In this document: positions 165 to 43,292 of the stretch, one piece after another
How positions within the stretch are numbered: position 1 is the first letter of the stretch
Layout: each line of letters opens with the position of its first letter
Assembly (NCBI GenBank): GCA_017962705.1
Contig: JAGCUV010000045.1
Span: 1-43,292 of the forward strand
Direction of reading: 5' to 3'
Source: Bacteroidales bacterium
GTDB taxonomy: Bacteria; Bacteroidota; Bacteroidia; Bacteroidales; UBA932
Length of the DNA: 43,292 nucleotides
Translations under genes and position numbers: made by a program
The notes under the pieces: model-generated
What the model was told of the DNA's origin: nothing
Seen by the model: only the letters and a program-made list of their open reading frames with translations
Database searches by the model: none

Positions 165-1550
165 TCAGAACAAATCATTCAGCGTCAGCACCCGTTGGAC
201 AGTAGCGGCGTGGGCATTGGGAACAACCCCCTCTGAAGACAGCAGGATTGTCGATAAAGCCATTTGTTTCTTATAGAGCCGTGAGATGGCCTGCCGGCGC
301 AAACGGAATTTCCGTTCATCCGCCTCTGTCACAGCATAGGGTTCATCCGTACATTTAATCTCAAAAATGTTGACTACACGGTCGTTGCGTTCCAACACCA
401 TATCCACTTGTACCTCCTTATCACAATAAGCATAGAGTTTGGTCAACACCCCATCCACACCCAATGCAAACTTGATGCGTCCCGAATGCGCAAAACAGAG
501 CCGCTCAAAGGATAGCCCTTTCCAGGTATAATAGGCCGGCTGGCCCTGCAAATGCATCCAATAGTGTTCATCTCCAAAGGAACCATTTCGGATAAACTGG
601 AAATAAAACAAAGAATAAAAATCCGCCAGACGATAGATGCTTCCCACCAGTCCCTTTGCCGGGAACTTGGAAATAAAGCCGCACTCCTGCAGGTCGTCCA
701 GTTTTTCGGAAACACTTCCTCCATCCTTGAATTTCCCCTTGGAAACAATCTCATCGCGCAGAAAACCCGACTTCTTCACGGACAAAATTTCAATAATTTT
801 CACATAATCCTTCGAATCTCGGAAAAGTGACGCATAAAGGTTCTCAAACTCCGATTTCAAGAGTGCGTTGGAAGCAAAAAACAAGCGATCGATATTCTGG
901 GCCAGGCTGAGCGACTTATCCAACAATTTCAAATAATAGGGAATGCCCCCAAGAATCATATAGCACTCGGCAATCGTCCTGTCATCCCAATAAATGCCCT
1001 GGCTGACCAGAAAGGCTTTTACCTCAGACAAATCAAATGGCTGCAATTTCAACGGAAGCGTAATTCTGTCGTGCAAACCGCCACGGCTCTTCGTTATTTT
1101 CTTCACCATCCAAGAAGCGGCTGAACCGCAAACCACCAAAACAACATTATGCTGAAAAGCAGCCCAATCGTTCCAAAAATGCTCAAGCGCCTTGAGAAAG
1201 TCAGATTTCTGCGTGTACATCCAAGGCAATTCATCCAAGAAAATCACCTTTCTTTTATCGCGGGATTGCTCCACCAATGTACGTAGGAAAGTGAAGGCCT
1301 CCATCCAATCCCGTAAAACAGGACAATTAGGCATCCCCTGCCGGACAAGGTCCGACCTGAAATTCATCAGTTCTTCCTCACGGCTGCCATTGGCGACACC
1401 GGTACAGGAAAACACAAAACGATTCTGAAAAAACTCTCGGACTAGATAGGTCTTGCCTACACGACGCCGGCCATAGACCATAACAAACTCCGAATCAGTT
1501 GAAAGATAGGCTCTTTCCAACTCTTTTTGCTCTTGAATACGTCCAATCAT
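165..1550 (-). CDS. AAA ATPase with C-terminal DUF234/PD-(D/E)XK nuclease-like domain (copy 1)
   Basis: A 461-residue protein from the ATG at 1548-1550. The frame stays open 16 codons further, but that stretch lies inside the repeat array and 'MIGRIQEQKEL' matches the start of the paralogue at 14.9-16.4 kb. Walker A is GRRRVGKT (about residues 27-34) and Walker B is KVIFLDELPWM (about residue 100). A winged-helix-like middle ('SVSEKLDDLQECGFIS') precedes a C-terminal 'VDMVLERNDRVVNIFEIKC', which has the D...ExK spacing of PD-(D/E)XK nucleases. This is the archaeal-type ATPase/DUF234 architecture common in Bacteroidota; its function is not established. The gene is AT-richer than neighbours and sits with its repeats between two housekeeping-type genes, which suggests acquisition as a cassette. 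Confidence 0.85.
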   Translation of the reverse strand: MIGRIQEQKELERAYLSTDSEFVMVYGRRRVGKTYLVREFFQNRFVFSCTGVANGSREEELMNFRSDLVRQGMPNCPVLRDWMEAFTFLRTLVEQSRDKRKVIFLDELPWMYTQKSDFLKALEHFWNDWAAFQHNVVLVVCGSAASWMVKKITKSRGGLHDRITLPLKLQPFDLSEVKAFLVSQGIYWDDRTIAECYMILGGIPYYLKLLDKSLSLAQNIDRLFFASNALLKSEFENLYASLFRDSKDYVKIIEILSVKKSGFLRDEIVSKGKFKDGGSVSEKLDDLQECGFISKFPAKGLVGSIYRLADFYSLFYFQFIRNGSFGDEHYWMHLQGQPAYYTWKGLSFERLCFAHSGRIKFALGVDGVLTKLYAYCDKEVQVDMVLERNDRVVNIFEIKCTDEPYAVTEADERKFRLRRQAISRLYKKQMALSTILLSSEGVVPNAHAATVQRVLTLNDLF

Positions 1551-1555
1551 AGCAT

Positions 1556-1657
1556 TTATTTTCTGCGGTAAAGGTACAAAAAGTATTTCATTCCGCAAAA
1601 AATAATGCTATTTTCTGCGGTACGGCGACATTTTTACTACCATTCCGCAGAAAATAA
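1556..1657. repeat. Two inverted-repeat pairs, 52-bp period, upstream of ATPase copy 1
   Basis: Four copies of a 12-13-bp element alternate in orientation: TTATTTTCTGCGG (1556-1568), CCGCAAAAAATAA (1593-1605), TATTTTCTGCGG (1609-1620) and CCGCAGAAAATAA (1645-1657). Both pairs enclose exactly 24 bp. Equivalent arms are 52 bp apart, about five helical turns. A weak -7-like TACCTTTA (complement of 1569-1576) lies inside the gene-proximal pair, so a protein bound to the arms would cover the promoter. The array fills nearly all the space between the manA stop and the ATPase start. Confidence 0.85.
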
Positions 1658-14922: not shown

Positions 14923-16368
14923 TTAGCGAGAGGAAACAAACAAATCCTCAAGTGTAATAACTTTTTGAAAGGCGCTCATATACTCGTTGGGGGCCAAGCC
15001 TTCCGTTGTAATAAGCGTCATATGCACTACATATCGTTTGGGGATTCTCTCCTGAAGAAGATTGAGTCTATGAAACAGTTTCTTATTATATTCCTTTGTC
15101 ACGCGGAACTCTTCGTTATAGAACTTCATCTCGCAAAGATTAACGACATTATCGGCTCGTTCAATAACCAAGTCTATCTGCGTTCCGTCGACATCATCAT
15201 CGCCGCGTAAGGCCCACTGCGACTCTTTTGAATTCACCCCGCTTACCCCTAAGGCTTCTTTGATTTCGTCAATATGATTCAGACAGATTTCTTCAAAAGC
15301 ATAGCCACGCCAGGTATTCAAAACGGGAGATTTGACATTATTCATCCAGAATTTTCTGTCAGATATTTGTTTTTTGTCACGAAAAAATAGCCAGAAACGA
15401 CAGAAACCATCACACAAACGATAGCGGTAAATCTTCCGTTCTCTCCCGCCAAAAGCCTCATATTTCACTATAAAATTGCTCGCGACAAGAGACTTAAGTT
15501 GCGTTGTCAAACTCTTTCCTCCCTGGCTTTTCGTCAATTCAATAATCTCTTCTCTACTATATCCCGAATGCCTCCCCGCCAGAACCCGTACAAGACTCTT
15601 ATACTGTTCCGGATTGACGAATAGAGAGCCGAATAGAAGATCAAATTCATCCTCCAGTTTCGCATCCTTGGAAAAAAATAAGTTATCTATATTCTGCGCA
15701 AGAGAACAGTCTGGCTCGAACATTCCCAGATAATAAGGAATTCCCCCCAGAATCATATACGACTGGGCAATGTCGTACAATGACATTCTAACGCCCGCCT
15801 CGTCAAAAAACGCTTTGCACTCTGAAAGGGAGAAGGGACTTAAATGAATTTTTCGCGTAATCCGCCCGTACAATCCACCTTTGCTATTGATGAGATTATC
15901 TTCAATCCAGGAAGTGGCACTACCGCACACAATTAGCATAATGTCATCTCTCCTTGACGCCCAGCCATTCCAAAAATGTTCAAACGCGGGGATGAAACGA
16001 GAACGAGGAGTATCCATCCAGGGAAGTTCATCAATAAAAATAACTTTCTTACCCACTGTACCATCGCTCTCAATCAGTTGTTCTAACAAAAAGAAAGCAT
16101 CCATCCACGATTTCGGAACCGGAGAATCCTTGAGCCCAAATCTCATTAATGAAATATGGAAAGCCTTGAGTTGATCTTGGAGAAGATTTTTCTTCTCCCT
16201 GTCATATGGAGAAAGGCCTGTGTGCCAAAAGGAAAATTTCCCTTTGAAATGCTCCTTGATAAGAAAGGTCTTTCCTACACGCCTTCTTCCATAAACAGCA
16301 ACAAATTCGGATTTATGGCTGTTGTATAAATTATCGAGTTGTCTTCGTTCTATATTTCTACCAACCAT
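14923..16368 (-). CDS. AAA ATPase with C-terminal DUF234/PD-(D/E)XK nuclease-like domain (copy 2)
   Basis: A 481-residue protein from the ATG at 16366-16368; a TTG start 5 codons upstream is less likely. It is a paralogue of the gene at 165-1550 along its full length. Walker A is GRRRVGKT, Walker B is KVIFIDELPWM, and then come 'YMILGGIPYYLGMFEPDCSL', a winged-helix-like middle, and 'IDLVIERADNVVNLCEMKF' with D...ExK. It is clearly AT-richer than the PUL genes beside it, suggesting separate origin. It ends 4 bp from the convergent oxidoreductase. Its promoter directly adjoins the repeat array at 16396-16541. Function unknown. Confidence 0.87.
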   Translation of the reverse strand: MVGRNIERRQLDNLYNSHKSEFVAVYGRRRVGKTFLIKEHFKGKFSFWHTGLSPYDREKKNLLQDQLKAFHISLMRFGLKDSPVPKSWMDAFFLLEQLIESDGTVGKKVIFIDELPWMDTPRSRFIPAFEHFWNGWASRRDDIMLIVCGSATSWIEDNLINSKGGLYGRITRKIHLSPFSLSECKAFFDEAGVRMSLYDIAQSYMILGGIPYYLGMFEPDCSLAQNIDNLFFSKDAKLEDEFDLLFGSLFVNPEQYKSLVRVLAGRHSGYSREEIIELTKSQGGKSLTTQLKSLVASNFIVKYEAFGGRERKIYRYRLCDGFCRFWLFFRDKKQISDRKFWMNNVKSPVLNTWRGYAFEEICLNHIDEIKEALGVSGVNSKESQWALRGDDDVDGTQIDLVIERADNVVNLCEMKFYNEEFRVTKEYNKKLFHRLNLLQERIPKRYVVHMTLITTEGLAPNEYMSAFQKVITLEDLFVSSR

Positions 16369-16380
16369 CGTTTTTTTTTG

Positions 16381-16388
16381 CAAATATA
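16381..16388 (-). promoter_or_regulatory. -7 element of ATPase copy 2
   Basis: The minus strand reads TATATTTG, a perfect -7 element. It lies 13 bases before the ATG and 7 bases downstream of the first repeat arm. Confidence 0.6.
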
Positions 16389-16395
16389 ATCTTTA

Positions 16396-16541
16396 TTTCC
16401 CCAAAAACAAAACACAACATCATATTTTGGGGAAACAAGCCCTCTTTATTTCCCCAAAAACAAGACACAACATCATATTTTGGGGAAACAAGCCCTCTTT
16501 ATTTCCCCAAAATCCACACTAATTGCTGAGTTTTGGGGAAA
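16396..16541. repeat. Three inverted-repeat pairs, exact 53-bp period, upstream of ATPase copy 2
   Basis: Six identical arms alternate: TTTCCCCAAAA at 16396-16406, 16449-16459 and 16502-16512, and TTTTGGGGAAA at 16425-16435, 16478-16488 and 16531-16541. All three pairs enclose exactly 18 bp, and equivalent arms are exactly 53 bp apart. The two gene-proximal units are near-perfect tandem copies including their 18-bp interior (one difference) and the GAGGGCTTG linker. The third has a different interior, so only the arms and spacing are kept. The array fills the gap between the last PUL gene and the ATPase promoter. Confidence 0.95.
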
Positions 16542-16557
16542 TAAACGGCAAACTTGA

Positions 16558-41702: not shown

Positions 41703-43052
41703 CTATAAGAGTGGCGTCATATAGAGAGGTAAAAATACCAGGCCATCTTTGATTTCCACATCTTTGGAGTGTAGAATATAGGGCGTAGAAAGATACTGAC
41801 CGAACTTCTTGATACATTTATTCATTGAGGTGAGGGTATAATGGGTGCTACTCTTGACCTCGATGGGAGAAATGTTATGGCGGGATGTGACTACTTTTTC
41901 CTGAATGAGGAAATCTATCTGCATGCGACCGTCAGCATCTTCTTTATCGACGCTAAAATAGAAGAAAAGGTCACTGCCTGTAGCCTTGAGCATCTGGGCT
42001 ACGATGTTCTCTACCAACATGCCCTCATTGACTTCCAATTTGTCAAACATCAGTTTCTGGTATATCTCATTTGTAACAATACCTCGAGCACCGAAAGCCA
42101 GGGAGATTAGGAGGCCGGTATCACAAAAATAGCACTTGAGGGCAGTACGGTCCTCATTGAGTTGCAGACCAATGTTTGGAGCCGTAGTATTGTAGCAGAT
42201 GTTGGCCAATCTGGCATCTTCCAGCCAGAAAAAGGCGCTATCGTACTCTCGCATCCGGGCTTCATCTTTTAAGGCTGCCAGGACAAATTTCTTCTCTTTC
42301 TTCTGCAACTGACCAGGAATGGCATCATAGATAGCAGAAATACGGGCCGTAAGTCCGCCAGCGTACTTCTTAATGTCGTTCTTATATAAGCGCAGAATCT
42401 GACGCTTGATAGCATCAACTCTATTAAAATCACGTGAGGCCGCATATTCGGCCACAGCCTGTGGCATGCCTCCGACTATGAGATACTGGCGGAAATAGTG
42501 CATGGCTTCGCGATGGAAATCTCCCATCGGCTGACGCTTTTCGAACCGACTTTGGATGTATGGCATCAGGACCTCGTTACCCATAGCCCAAAGAAACTCC
42601 TCAAAGTCCATGGGGAACATATCAATACCATCCTCCTCGGAAGGAATGACGATGTTCTCAACATTCTTCTTAATGGAGATGAGAGAACCGGTCTCAATAT
42701 AGTCGAAGCGATGATCCTGCACCAAGGCCTTGATGGCCTCGCGAGCACGGGGACATTTCTGAACTTCGTCAAAGATAATGAGAGATTTTCGCGGCGTAAG
42801 ACGCTTCTTGTAATGGAGTTGGATATTCTGAAGAAGCGTATCGACATCTTCCAGATACTCATCGAACCAATCCTTGACACGCCCGGGCGCCTTACTGAAG
42901 TCGATGAGAATATAAGATTCATATTCATTGCGCGCGAATTCTTCTGCAATCCAACTCTTTCCAATACGCCGTGCTCCCTCAATCAAAAGGGCCGTTTCGC
43001 CGTTTTTCTCCTGCTTCCACTGAAGCAATCTATCGTAAATTTTTCGTCTCAT
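41703..43052 (-). CDS. AAA ATPase with DUF4143 C-terminus (copy 3, PD-(D/E)XK-like end)
   Basis: A 449-residue protein from the ATG at 43050-43052; a TTG start five codons earlier is less likely. Walker A is 'EGARRIGKSW', Walker B 'LIIFDEVQKCPRAREAI', sensor-like 'YIETGSLIS', then 'MDFEEFLWAM' and 'YLIVGGMPQAVAEY'. The C-terminal DUF4143 has 'LEVNEGMLVENIVAQML' and 'QIDFLI....ISPIEVKSS', again a D...ExK nuclease-like arrangement. It is a different subfamily from the other two ATPases but has the same plan. It is AT-rich and convergent with the phosphatase gene 8 bp away. Function unknown. Confidence 0.88.
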   Translation of the reverse strand: MRRKIYDRLLQWKQEKNGETALLIEGARRIGKSWIAEEFARNEYESYILIDFSKAPGRVKDWFDEYLEDVDTLLQNIQLHYKKRLTPRKSLIIFDEVQKCPRAREAIKALVQDHRFDYIETGSLISIKKNVENIVIPSEEDGIDMFPMDFEEFLWAMGNEVLMPYIQSRFEKRQPMGDFHREAMHYFRQYLIVGGMPQAVAEYAASRDFNRVDAIKRQILRLYKNDIKKYAGGLTARISAIYDAIPGQLQKKEKKFVLAALKDEARMREYDSAFFWLEDARLANICYNTTAPNIGLQLNEDRTALKCYFCDTGLLISLAFGARGIVTNEIYQKLMFDKLEVNEGMLVENIVAQMLKATGSDLFFYFSVDKEDADGRMQIDFLIQEKVVTSRHNISPIEVKSSTHYTLTSMNKCIKKFGQYLSTPYILHSKDVEIKDGLVFLPLYMTPLL

Positions 43053-43132
43053 ATTCACCTTTTCCAATGTTTAGACGGGGGCAAATATACACCTTTTCTA
43101 GATTTTTAACAAGAGCAATTATACACCTTTTC
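43052..43132 (-). repeat. Three direct repeats, exact 34-bp period, over the start and promoter of ATPase copy 3
   Basis: On the minus strand GAAAAGGTGTATA occurs at 43120-43132 and 43086-43098. A variant, GAAAAGGTGAATA, is at 43052-43064. The spacing is 34 bp each time. The gene-proximal copy contains the ribosome-binding site and touches the ATG; the middle one overlaps the -7 element. A protein binding the repeats would control both transcription and translation starts. Confidence 0.8.
43082..43089 (-). promoter_or_regulatory. -7 element of ATPase copy 3
   Basis: The minus strand reads TATATTTG, perfect, 30 bases before the ATG and overlapping the middle 34-bp repeat. Confidence 0.6.
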
Positions 43133-43167
43133 GCGATTTTTACGCTCAAGACTGTACCGCGCGCGAG

Positions 43168-43260
43168 AAGTAGACACGAAAAGATTTTTTCGTTAATACT
43201 TATTTTCGAAAGTAGACACCGGTAAAGTTTTTCCTGCATCTGGTTTTACAAAAGTAGACA
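43168..43260 (-). repeat. Three direct repeats, exact 42-bp period, upstream of ATPase copy 3
   Basis: TGTCTACTT (minus strand) begins three times, at the complements of 43252-43260, 43210-43218 and 43168-43176, exactly 42 bp apart (four helical turns). The two distal copies continue as TTG/TCG, giving TACTTTTG in one, itself a perfect -7 element. The segments between copies are unrelated except for being A/T-rich. The series may continue past the right edge. Confidence 0.75.
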
Positions 43261-43292
43261 TTTTTCAACGATTTTCAAGATTTTCTTTTTCA

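Follow-up and report, generated by a model that had tools for sequence, protein, structure and literature searches.

Private repeat arrays at the promoters of PDC-S27 and PDC-S01 ATPase-nuclease genes: candidate operators read by their own products

A 43,292-nucleotide stretch of a Bacteroidales genome (contig JAGCUV010000045.1, hereafter the window) carries three ATPase-nuclease genes, each with a short motif reiterated at its promoter. What purpose could these arrays serve, and does each protein read its own? From the comparison of the three copies with their homologues, we consider it probable that the array is an operator read by the gene's own product, which represses its gene, and that it perhaps also bounds a cassette made of this one gene. 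The firmest support is for the view that the protein would read its own private array and that this array would act as the operator. The comparative evidence comprises the private arrays, their spacing, covariation with the protein, promoter overlap, bracketing of a subset of the genes, and solo arrays at two loci. Binding and repression themselves, a role of the nuclease in mobility and any antiphage role are what we infer. The genes belong to two families, PDC-S27 (copies 1 and 2) and PDC-S01 (copy 3), and lie with their arrays as follows (E, expectation value).

165..1550, minus strand: copy 1 gene, PDC-S27 (PADLOC match E 1.2e-173)
1556..1657: copy 1 array, half-sites CCGCAGAAAATAA at 1556(-), 1593(+), 1608(-) and 1645(+), two mirrored pairs with period 52
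14923..16368, minus strand: copy 2 gene, PDC-S27, 481 amino acids from the ATG at 16368 (PADLOC PDLC04984, E 2.9e-188); domains ATPase_2, winged helix and DUF234-like PD-(D/E)XK
16393..16544, no strand: copy 2 array, six half-sites TTTTGGGGAAAYAA at 16393(-), 16425(+), 16446(-), 16478(+), 16499(-) and 16531(+), alternating -/+ with spacing 32/21/32/21/32 and period 53
41703..43052, minus strand: copy 3 gene, PDC-S01, AAA_14 and DUF4143 (PDLC04786, E 1.6e-113)
43052..43132, minus strand: copy 3 array, direct units GAAAAGGTGTATA at 43052, 43086 and 43120, period 34

Arrays upstream of PDC-S27 genes

The copy 2 array reached a Tandem Repeats Finder score of 239. At up to one mismatch its motif occurred six times in the 2.14-Mb genome, and all six occurrences were inside its own array. 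The copy 1 motif had four genomic matches at the same tolerance, two in its own array and two lone half-sites elsewhere. In the register of the family alignment, the copy 1 half-sites lie 32/20/32 bp apart. The copy 3 repeat was also present in an 86% identical homologue (L195).

Two sets of homologues were used to examine how general these arrays are. The order set held 93 PDC-S27 genes, mostly from the same order as the source; 95 of 109 homologous frames were kept after duplicates and fragments were dropped, and 93 of these had enough upstream DNA. The named-contig set held 77 PDC-S27 genes of 82 from named genome contigs (the best 80 of at least 583 loci), labelled mostly Bacteroidales, with others from Firmicutes and a few further groups. 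Within 200 bp upstream, the best inverted repeat scored at least 12 in 56 of the 93 order-set genes, against 1.3% of 3720 dinucleotide-preserving shuffles, and the best direct repeat scored at least 12 in 40 of the 93, against 2.0% of shuffles. The inverted score reached at least 14 in 73 of 169 PDC-S27 genes and in 12 of 293 regions lying upstream of neighbouring genes. The upstream regions of the family are AT-rich (67%, compared with 60% in the neighbouring-gene controls), which might suggest chance repeats in low-complexity DNA. However, both shuffles and neighbouring genes fall short of the observed scores, so that chance is refuted as the cause of the family-wide pattern and keeps practically no weight.

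The spacing of the repeats followed the DNA helix. Of the 169 genes, 90 had a direct repeat scoring at least 11, with periods of 52-54 in 44 and 62-64 in 12, and smaller groups at 83-85 and 94. The Rayleigh phase of these 90 at 10.5 bp was strong (R 0.69, p 2.7e-19) and persisted without the periods of 50-55 (R 0.50, n=43, p 2.5e-5). With the main period peak removed, the phase was significant in the named-contig set (n=21, p 2.3e-5) and not in the order set (n=22, p 0.10). Half-sites alternate about three and about two helical turns apart, a spacing that would allow oligomers to sit on one face of the DNA.

When the arms were aligned from the symmetry axis, PDC-S27 sites appeared as variants of one skeleton, NNNWTTYRGCNRAWTATA (about WTTYRGCNRAWTATA), with a variable core; the axis-to-site offset was the same in 184 of 273 pairs. 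The sites had been picked as inverted repeats before alignment, and the skeleton is therefore partly selected for.

Among 11 records outside the two sets, a strong mirrored pair was found in Butyrivibrio (a plasmid, complete record), Emticicia, Segatella and Phocaeicola, with 0 of 60 shuffles reaching it in each case. Direct repeats were found in a Wolbachia phage WO homologue (period 56, 0 of 60 shuffles) and in a Malaciobacter homologue (period 51, 1 of 60), and a Desulfosarcina homologue had weak repeats. The Wolbachia homologue (L277) is phage-borne and lies next to head genes, with the repeats at its promoter.

Co-resident copies were also seen in the source genome. By eye, two PDC-S27 copies (L006 and L008, contigs C139 and C13) have the word TTTATTTTGCTGG in common, and two genes of a further DUF4143 subfamily (L009 and L010, contigs C97 and C34) have a common repeated word, GCCAAATAACCAAAC, with small variants.

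Motif core, protein segment and promoter

Do the private cores vary together with the protein? We compared the core with 94 windows of 15 residues in 136 of 170 PDC-S27 genes (inverted score at least 10, protein at least 440 amino acids). The segment concerned and the promoter boxes discussed below are these.

15469..15558, minus strand: copy 2 codons 271-300, segment covarying with the core of the motif over windows 271-295, most strongly over 281-295 (SQGGKSLTTQLKSLV)
16381..16388, minus strand: copy 2 -7 promoter box TATATTTG, Bacteroidota-type, 4 bp from the innermost half-site
43082-43089, minus strand: copy 3 promoter box TATATTTG, overlapping the middle array unit

Only windows 271, 276 and 281 passed the permutation threshold. 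The peak r was 0.21, the null maximum 0.158, and 0 of 400 permutations reached the observed peak. Distances over the whole protein did not correlate with core distances (Mantel r 0.03, 97/500). The peak was retained in the order set and in pairs at most 45% identical (0 of 200 permutations each). The segment follows the pattern TRxEIxxxxxxxxGGxLTxxLxxL, and its place and pattern make residues 271-295 the likely recognition helix of the PDC-S27 winged helix. Individual residues were associated with individual bases: S at residue 283 went with G at base 7 (37 of 38 genes, compared with 37 of 98 others), D at 283 with C at base 7 (18 of 34 versus 3 of 102), and T at 286 with T at base 10 (18 of 30 versus 14 of 106). 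Column-wise mutual information gave the pair G283-base 7 a z of 23.4, above the null maximum of 17.3; the next pairs, involving the gap-rich columns 480 and 481 and others, stayed below it. Because only this pair beat the null, we relied on the windows and contingency tables. These results suggest that the PDC-S27 protein reads its own private array; the ATPase-winged helix-nuclease would bind the mirrored half-sites through its recognition helix.

The sites also overlap the promoter or lie next to it. The consensus of the Bacteroidota -7 box is TAnnTTTG. Among 147 Bacteroidota-type PDC-S27 genes, 121 had it in the 75 bp preceding the start, and 7 had it in a more distal upstream stretch of the same length. 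A site axis was nearby for 89 of these boxes; 32 of the 89 were at +4 to +6, where TTTG forms part of the half-site, and 20 were at +36 to +39. At 23 other loci, mostly contigs of metagenome-assembled genomes that are possibly misbinned, a TTGAC -35 element fell within a half-site in eight, all labelled Firmicutes (six with script-called arms, two by eye). Since hosts with two promoter types use one arrangement, the PDC-S27 array is very probably an operator, with promoter-proximal sites repressing the gene.

PDC-S01 seems to follow an equivalent scheme with direct repeats of period 33. Direct repeats scored at least 11 in 96 of 111 genes, compared with 62 of 888 shuffles, and the period was 32-34 in 78 of the 111. 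The motif covaried with windows 186-200 (partial r 0.22) and 246-276 (up to 0.20) in 91 of the 111 genes, the maximum lying above 200 permutations. We read segment 246-276 as winged-helix-like. Besides this segment, the strongest covariation was in the VGGMP loop region (residues 186-200, copy 3 numbering).

The arms of the inverted repeats could pair in single strands, and might thus be RNA hairpins or terminators. We reject this as very improbable: the outer pairs are located before the point where transcription probably begins, the spacing tracks the DNA helix, and the core covaries with the DNA-reading segment. Moreover, the PDC-S01 arrays are direct, and inverted repeats are not clearly enriched there (2 of 30 genes at a score of at least 11, versus 1.5% of shuffles).

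An earlier note on this DNA had described private periodic arrays at all three genes, built of unrelated motifs and phased at 10.5 bp. Periods of 52, 53 and 34 for copies 1, 2 and 3 were recovered, whereas its period of 42 belongs to an insertion-element end. The layout is periodic as described, but copies 1 and 2 carry mirrored (inverted) pairs and not merely direct repeats. The motifs do have variable private cores, though the PDC-S27 sites share one skeleton. Helical phasing at 10.5 bp held for PDC-S27 (52.5, 63), but the 33 bp of PDC-S01 would need 11 bp in each turn to make three. The note had expected coincidence if most homologues lacked upstream repeats or if periods were evenly spread; in the survey, arrays were usual and the periods clustered near multiples of 10.5 bp.

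Flanking arrays, solo arrays and mobility

Do the arrays also delimit something that moves? Of 131 PDC-S27 genes, 33 had an own half-site within 300 bp past the stop codon, versus 2 of 372 cross-comparisons. At E 1e-3, upstream and downstream flanks were similar for 59 of 164 genes versus 2 of 161 controls, a similarity not confirmed as array sequence in every case; the best match was direct in 54 of the 59 and inverted in 5. The corresponding count for PDC-S01 was 33 of 104 genes (30 direct, 3 inverted), versus 0 of 104 controls. Among 32 listed pairs of genes from different loci (at least 72% identical), 18 had homology that began 40-165 bp before the gene and ended no more than 20 bp from the stop codon; in the remaining pairs it extended further or ended short.

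A plain autoregulated accessory gene could account for part of this picture. The array would be an operator only, flanking and solo copies would arise through duplication and RecA recombination, and the gene would move on other elements. Promoter overlap and covariation need nothing further, and about two thirds of the genes have no similar downstream repeat. Direct two-sided repeats in about a third of the genes in two families (54/59 and 30/33 direct), and homology that often ends at the array edge and the stop codon (18 of 32 pairs), fit this explanation less well. We rate its chances as falling a little short of even. The explanations weighed here are not mutually exclusive, and their likelihoods need not sum to one.

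Two loci allowed genomes with and without the gene to be compared. At locus A, the gene of G209 lies between 237-bp direct repeats that are 97.5% identical, and the gene is also present in G285. A solo pair of half-sites without the gene occurs in G364 and G375, and in G374 close to where one contig begins; in G375 the solo array has decayed, as a plain operator would allow. In G116, G363, G376 and G358 there are 27 bp and no site. The locus A comparison leaves out 943 bp of G366. At locus B, G116 has array-gene-array where G376 has one solo array, with 2-kb flanks 97.5% and 90.4% identical. A scan with the array pattern gave no other match in G364 and G376. One of 23 pattern matches (G285, contig C29) was set aside as chance by its look, with no ATPase gene within 3 kb and no mirrored arms.

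In two records at locus A (L384 and L364; contigs C129 of G365 and C209 of G374), a solo array runs straight into unrelated sequence, with a 591-codon open frame in G365. It is as if the locus A array were a general insertion point.

Both loci bear on a homing or integration site, in which the nuclease would cut or recombine at arrays matching its type and a copy of the gene would be placed beside solo arrays, as in a REPIN/RAYT-like or homing-like selfish element. The contrast of G116 with G376 at locus B, the series of genes, solo pairs and empty sites at locus A, and the patchy occurrence of PDC-S27 are in its favour. With a cut-off of E 1e-60, the family was found in 49 of 294 genomes; at most five candidates were scored per genome, copies per genome being lower bounds. 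However, the solo arrays are possibly footprints of loss, the copy 2 arrays are not dispersed in the genome, and no target duplication was established at the gene-less loci. Homing is possible, though we lean against it. Solo arrays may be either entry sites or footprints of gene loss.

We return to the self-read operator that may also end a cassette. A PDC-S27 gene would be a one-gene cassette carrying a DNA word read by its own product. In a subset the array would stand on both sides, and alone where the gene is absent; the two-sided and solo arrays together imply that it probably marks the cassette ends for gene gain or loss. For this subset, we regard delimitation of a mobile unit by the array as a strong lead.

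Several observations weigh against this reading, in addition to the preselection of inverted sites and the limit on flank similarity given above. In the window, no array was found downstream of copies 2 and 3, and the downstream flank of copy 1 extends for 164 bp. The copy 2 promoter box lies next to the innermost half-site, 4 bp away, without overlapping it. Covariation was weaker among 76 genes made non-redundant at 60% (8 of 200 permutations), and 63 named-contig genes alone gave no significant peak (28 of 200), with window 206 at the top and window 281 fourth. For PDC-S01, motif and protein distances correlate overall (r 0.17), a confounder that the permutation leaves in place. Among four distant homologues of 27-29% identity, from three haloarchaea and Rhodothermus, Halomarina and Natrinema had no array, and Haladaptatus and Rhodothermus had only short repeats at spacings of 15-19, with no comparable array. 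In addition, plain homologous recombination between flanking repeats is a protein-independent route to a solo array.

The earlier note had also proposed that each ATPase-nuclease recognises its own array, for autoregulation or to tell self from foreign copies, and that the gene and its array look like a transferable cassette. Self-recognition gains support by comparison, since the core covaries only with windows of the putative recognition segment, with two subsets weaker. Autoregulation draws support from sites overlapping or adjoining promoters of two types, and the cassette from the limits of homology in 18 of 32 pairs and from the array-gene-array and solo-array loci. The self/foreign distinction is without direct support: among 73 genes of known genome, a sample in which L006 and L008 are absent as a matching pair, co-resident copies shared a core in 1 of 52 pairs, versus 4.4 expected (P 0.06).

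The period-42 repeats, once counted with copy 3, were ruled out as part of its array:

43153..43292, no strand: insertion-element end, starting TGTACCGCGCGCGAG; GTAGACA repeats (TGTCTACTT, period 42) at 43170, 43212 and 43254

This end was 100% identical on contigs C73 and C83 of the same genome. Among 60 genus relatives, five carried it at 77-95% identity, and in two relatives a transposase of the rve type is oriented toward it. An IS21-like identity was dropped, the neighbouring fragment being an rve integrase core (PF00665, E 9.8e-11); we take the element to be IS3-like. Besides the window copy, the loci of this element are L241, L234, L235, L236 and L240. In five of ten matches the end adjoins the outer side of a DUF4143 gene promoter (C127 and C73 of the source genome, G347, G027 and G025), and in three the gap from the end to the first repeat is about 10 bp. 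A 21-bp remnant also lies upstream of one PDC-S27 gene (C9). These positions may reflect an insertion hot spot or targeting by bound ATPase.

Relation to known systems and meaning

Copies 1 and 2 matched the PADLOC model of PDC-S27 at full length (copy 2 over residues 5-482 of P0001), and copy 3 matched that of PDC-S01 at full length. Pfam returned ATPase_2 for copies 1 and 2, and AAA_14 and DUF4143 above the cut-off for copy 3. In 88 aligned PDC-S27 homologues, the Walker A/B and D..ExK columns were invariant or at least 90% conserved. DUF234 was reached at E 0.01 by 39 of the 88, and the winged-helix Pfam families matched up to 4 members each; residues 252-304 of copy 2 matched B-block_TFIIIC below threshold. 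The catalytic motifs of copy 2 are placed as follows.

15124..15174, minus strand: copy 2 nuclease motif D-x13-ExK; of the 88 homologues all have D and E, and at least 90% have K
16267..16290, minus strand: copy 2 Walker A GRRRVGKT, with GRRR, G and K conserved in all 88

The assignment of PDC-S27 to the PD-(D/E)XK fold comes from the text of PMC12988326 available to us, alongside the DUF234 matches. Against sequences in the PDB, the PDC-S27 profile resembled 2QEN (E 1.5e-6), TnsC (2.2e-4) and ORC4 (3.7e-4), a likeness that would fit an oligomeric, DNA-bound AAA+ protein.

PDC-S27 and PDC-S01 are common, largely unvalidated phage-defence candidates. We know of no antiphage test of either family. 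The parts of PMC12988326 and PMC13356809 at hand present both as an ATPase fused to a PD-(D/E)XK domain, and the former states that most PDCs await validation. In those parts, the same genes are described with no mention of promoter arrays, self-recognition or bracketing. Our search of the open-access literature, as far as its texts were available, found the promoter and flanking arrays of both families undescribed, and the original report of the candidates was not located.

The candidacy raises the possibility of a defence sensor, in which the ATPase-nuclease is kept inactive on the array and released or activated by phage, with the array as a threshold-setting decoy. The listing of both families as PADLOC defence candidates (PMC12988326, in the part available) and the invariant Walker and nuclease residues agree with it. 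Yet a sensor leaves the site differences between copies unexplained, and the ten window proteins scanned looked metabolic or surface-related, one being without a match. We therefore judge it unlikely.

The self-read operator has likenesses among known systems. RAYT genes likewise have a private mirrored repeat pair near each gene, with each genome's copies distinctive, according to the available part of PMC3116915; there the enzyme is a tyrosine transposase and REPINs are dispersed genome-wide, whereas here it is an ATPase-nuclease and the copy 2 array is not dispersed. In addition, the repeat here overlaps or adjoins the promoter. A RAYT-type tyrosine transposase was not among the Pfam matches of copies 1-3 (ATPase_2, AAA families, DUF234, DUF4143, weak winged helix). 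Orc1/Cdc6 proteins also combine an AAA+ ATPase with a winged helix and have mirrored origin recognition boxes beside the gene, a likeness extended by the profile matches above. The present proteins differ in their nuclease domain, accessory distribution and lack of origin evidence, and no Orc/Cdc6 Pfam family was among the six families of copy 2 or the 25 (of 32) listed for the 88 members. Phage immunity groups have a self-encoded repressor and a private operator of several types. The present genes resemble them in both respects, except that repressor and presumed effector would be one protein. IniR, a mycobacterial ATPase regulator, shares an AAA+ domain modelled on SSO1545 and acts at a promoter. 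It differs in having another DNA-binding domain and inducing its target operon, with no nuclease or own array mentioned in the part of PMC5760070 available.

A bolder proposal, which we offer tentatively and hold rather doubtful, is that both families are selfish one-gene elements of a new kind and not primarily immune. The private sites, mirrored in PDC-S27 and tandem in PDC-S01, would be read by the ATPase-nuclease and would be operator and ends at once, and a resident copy would silence newcomers of the same type. This would diversify specificity through one helix and yield a readable protein-DNA code.

If each gene does bring along the DNA target of its product, genomes already contain thousands of protein-site pairs. 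A residue-to-base code would then be learnable from them, and the label 'defence' could be tested against that of 'selfish cassette'. DNA-binding, promoter and mobility assays could be designed at once.

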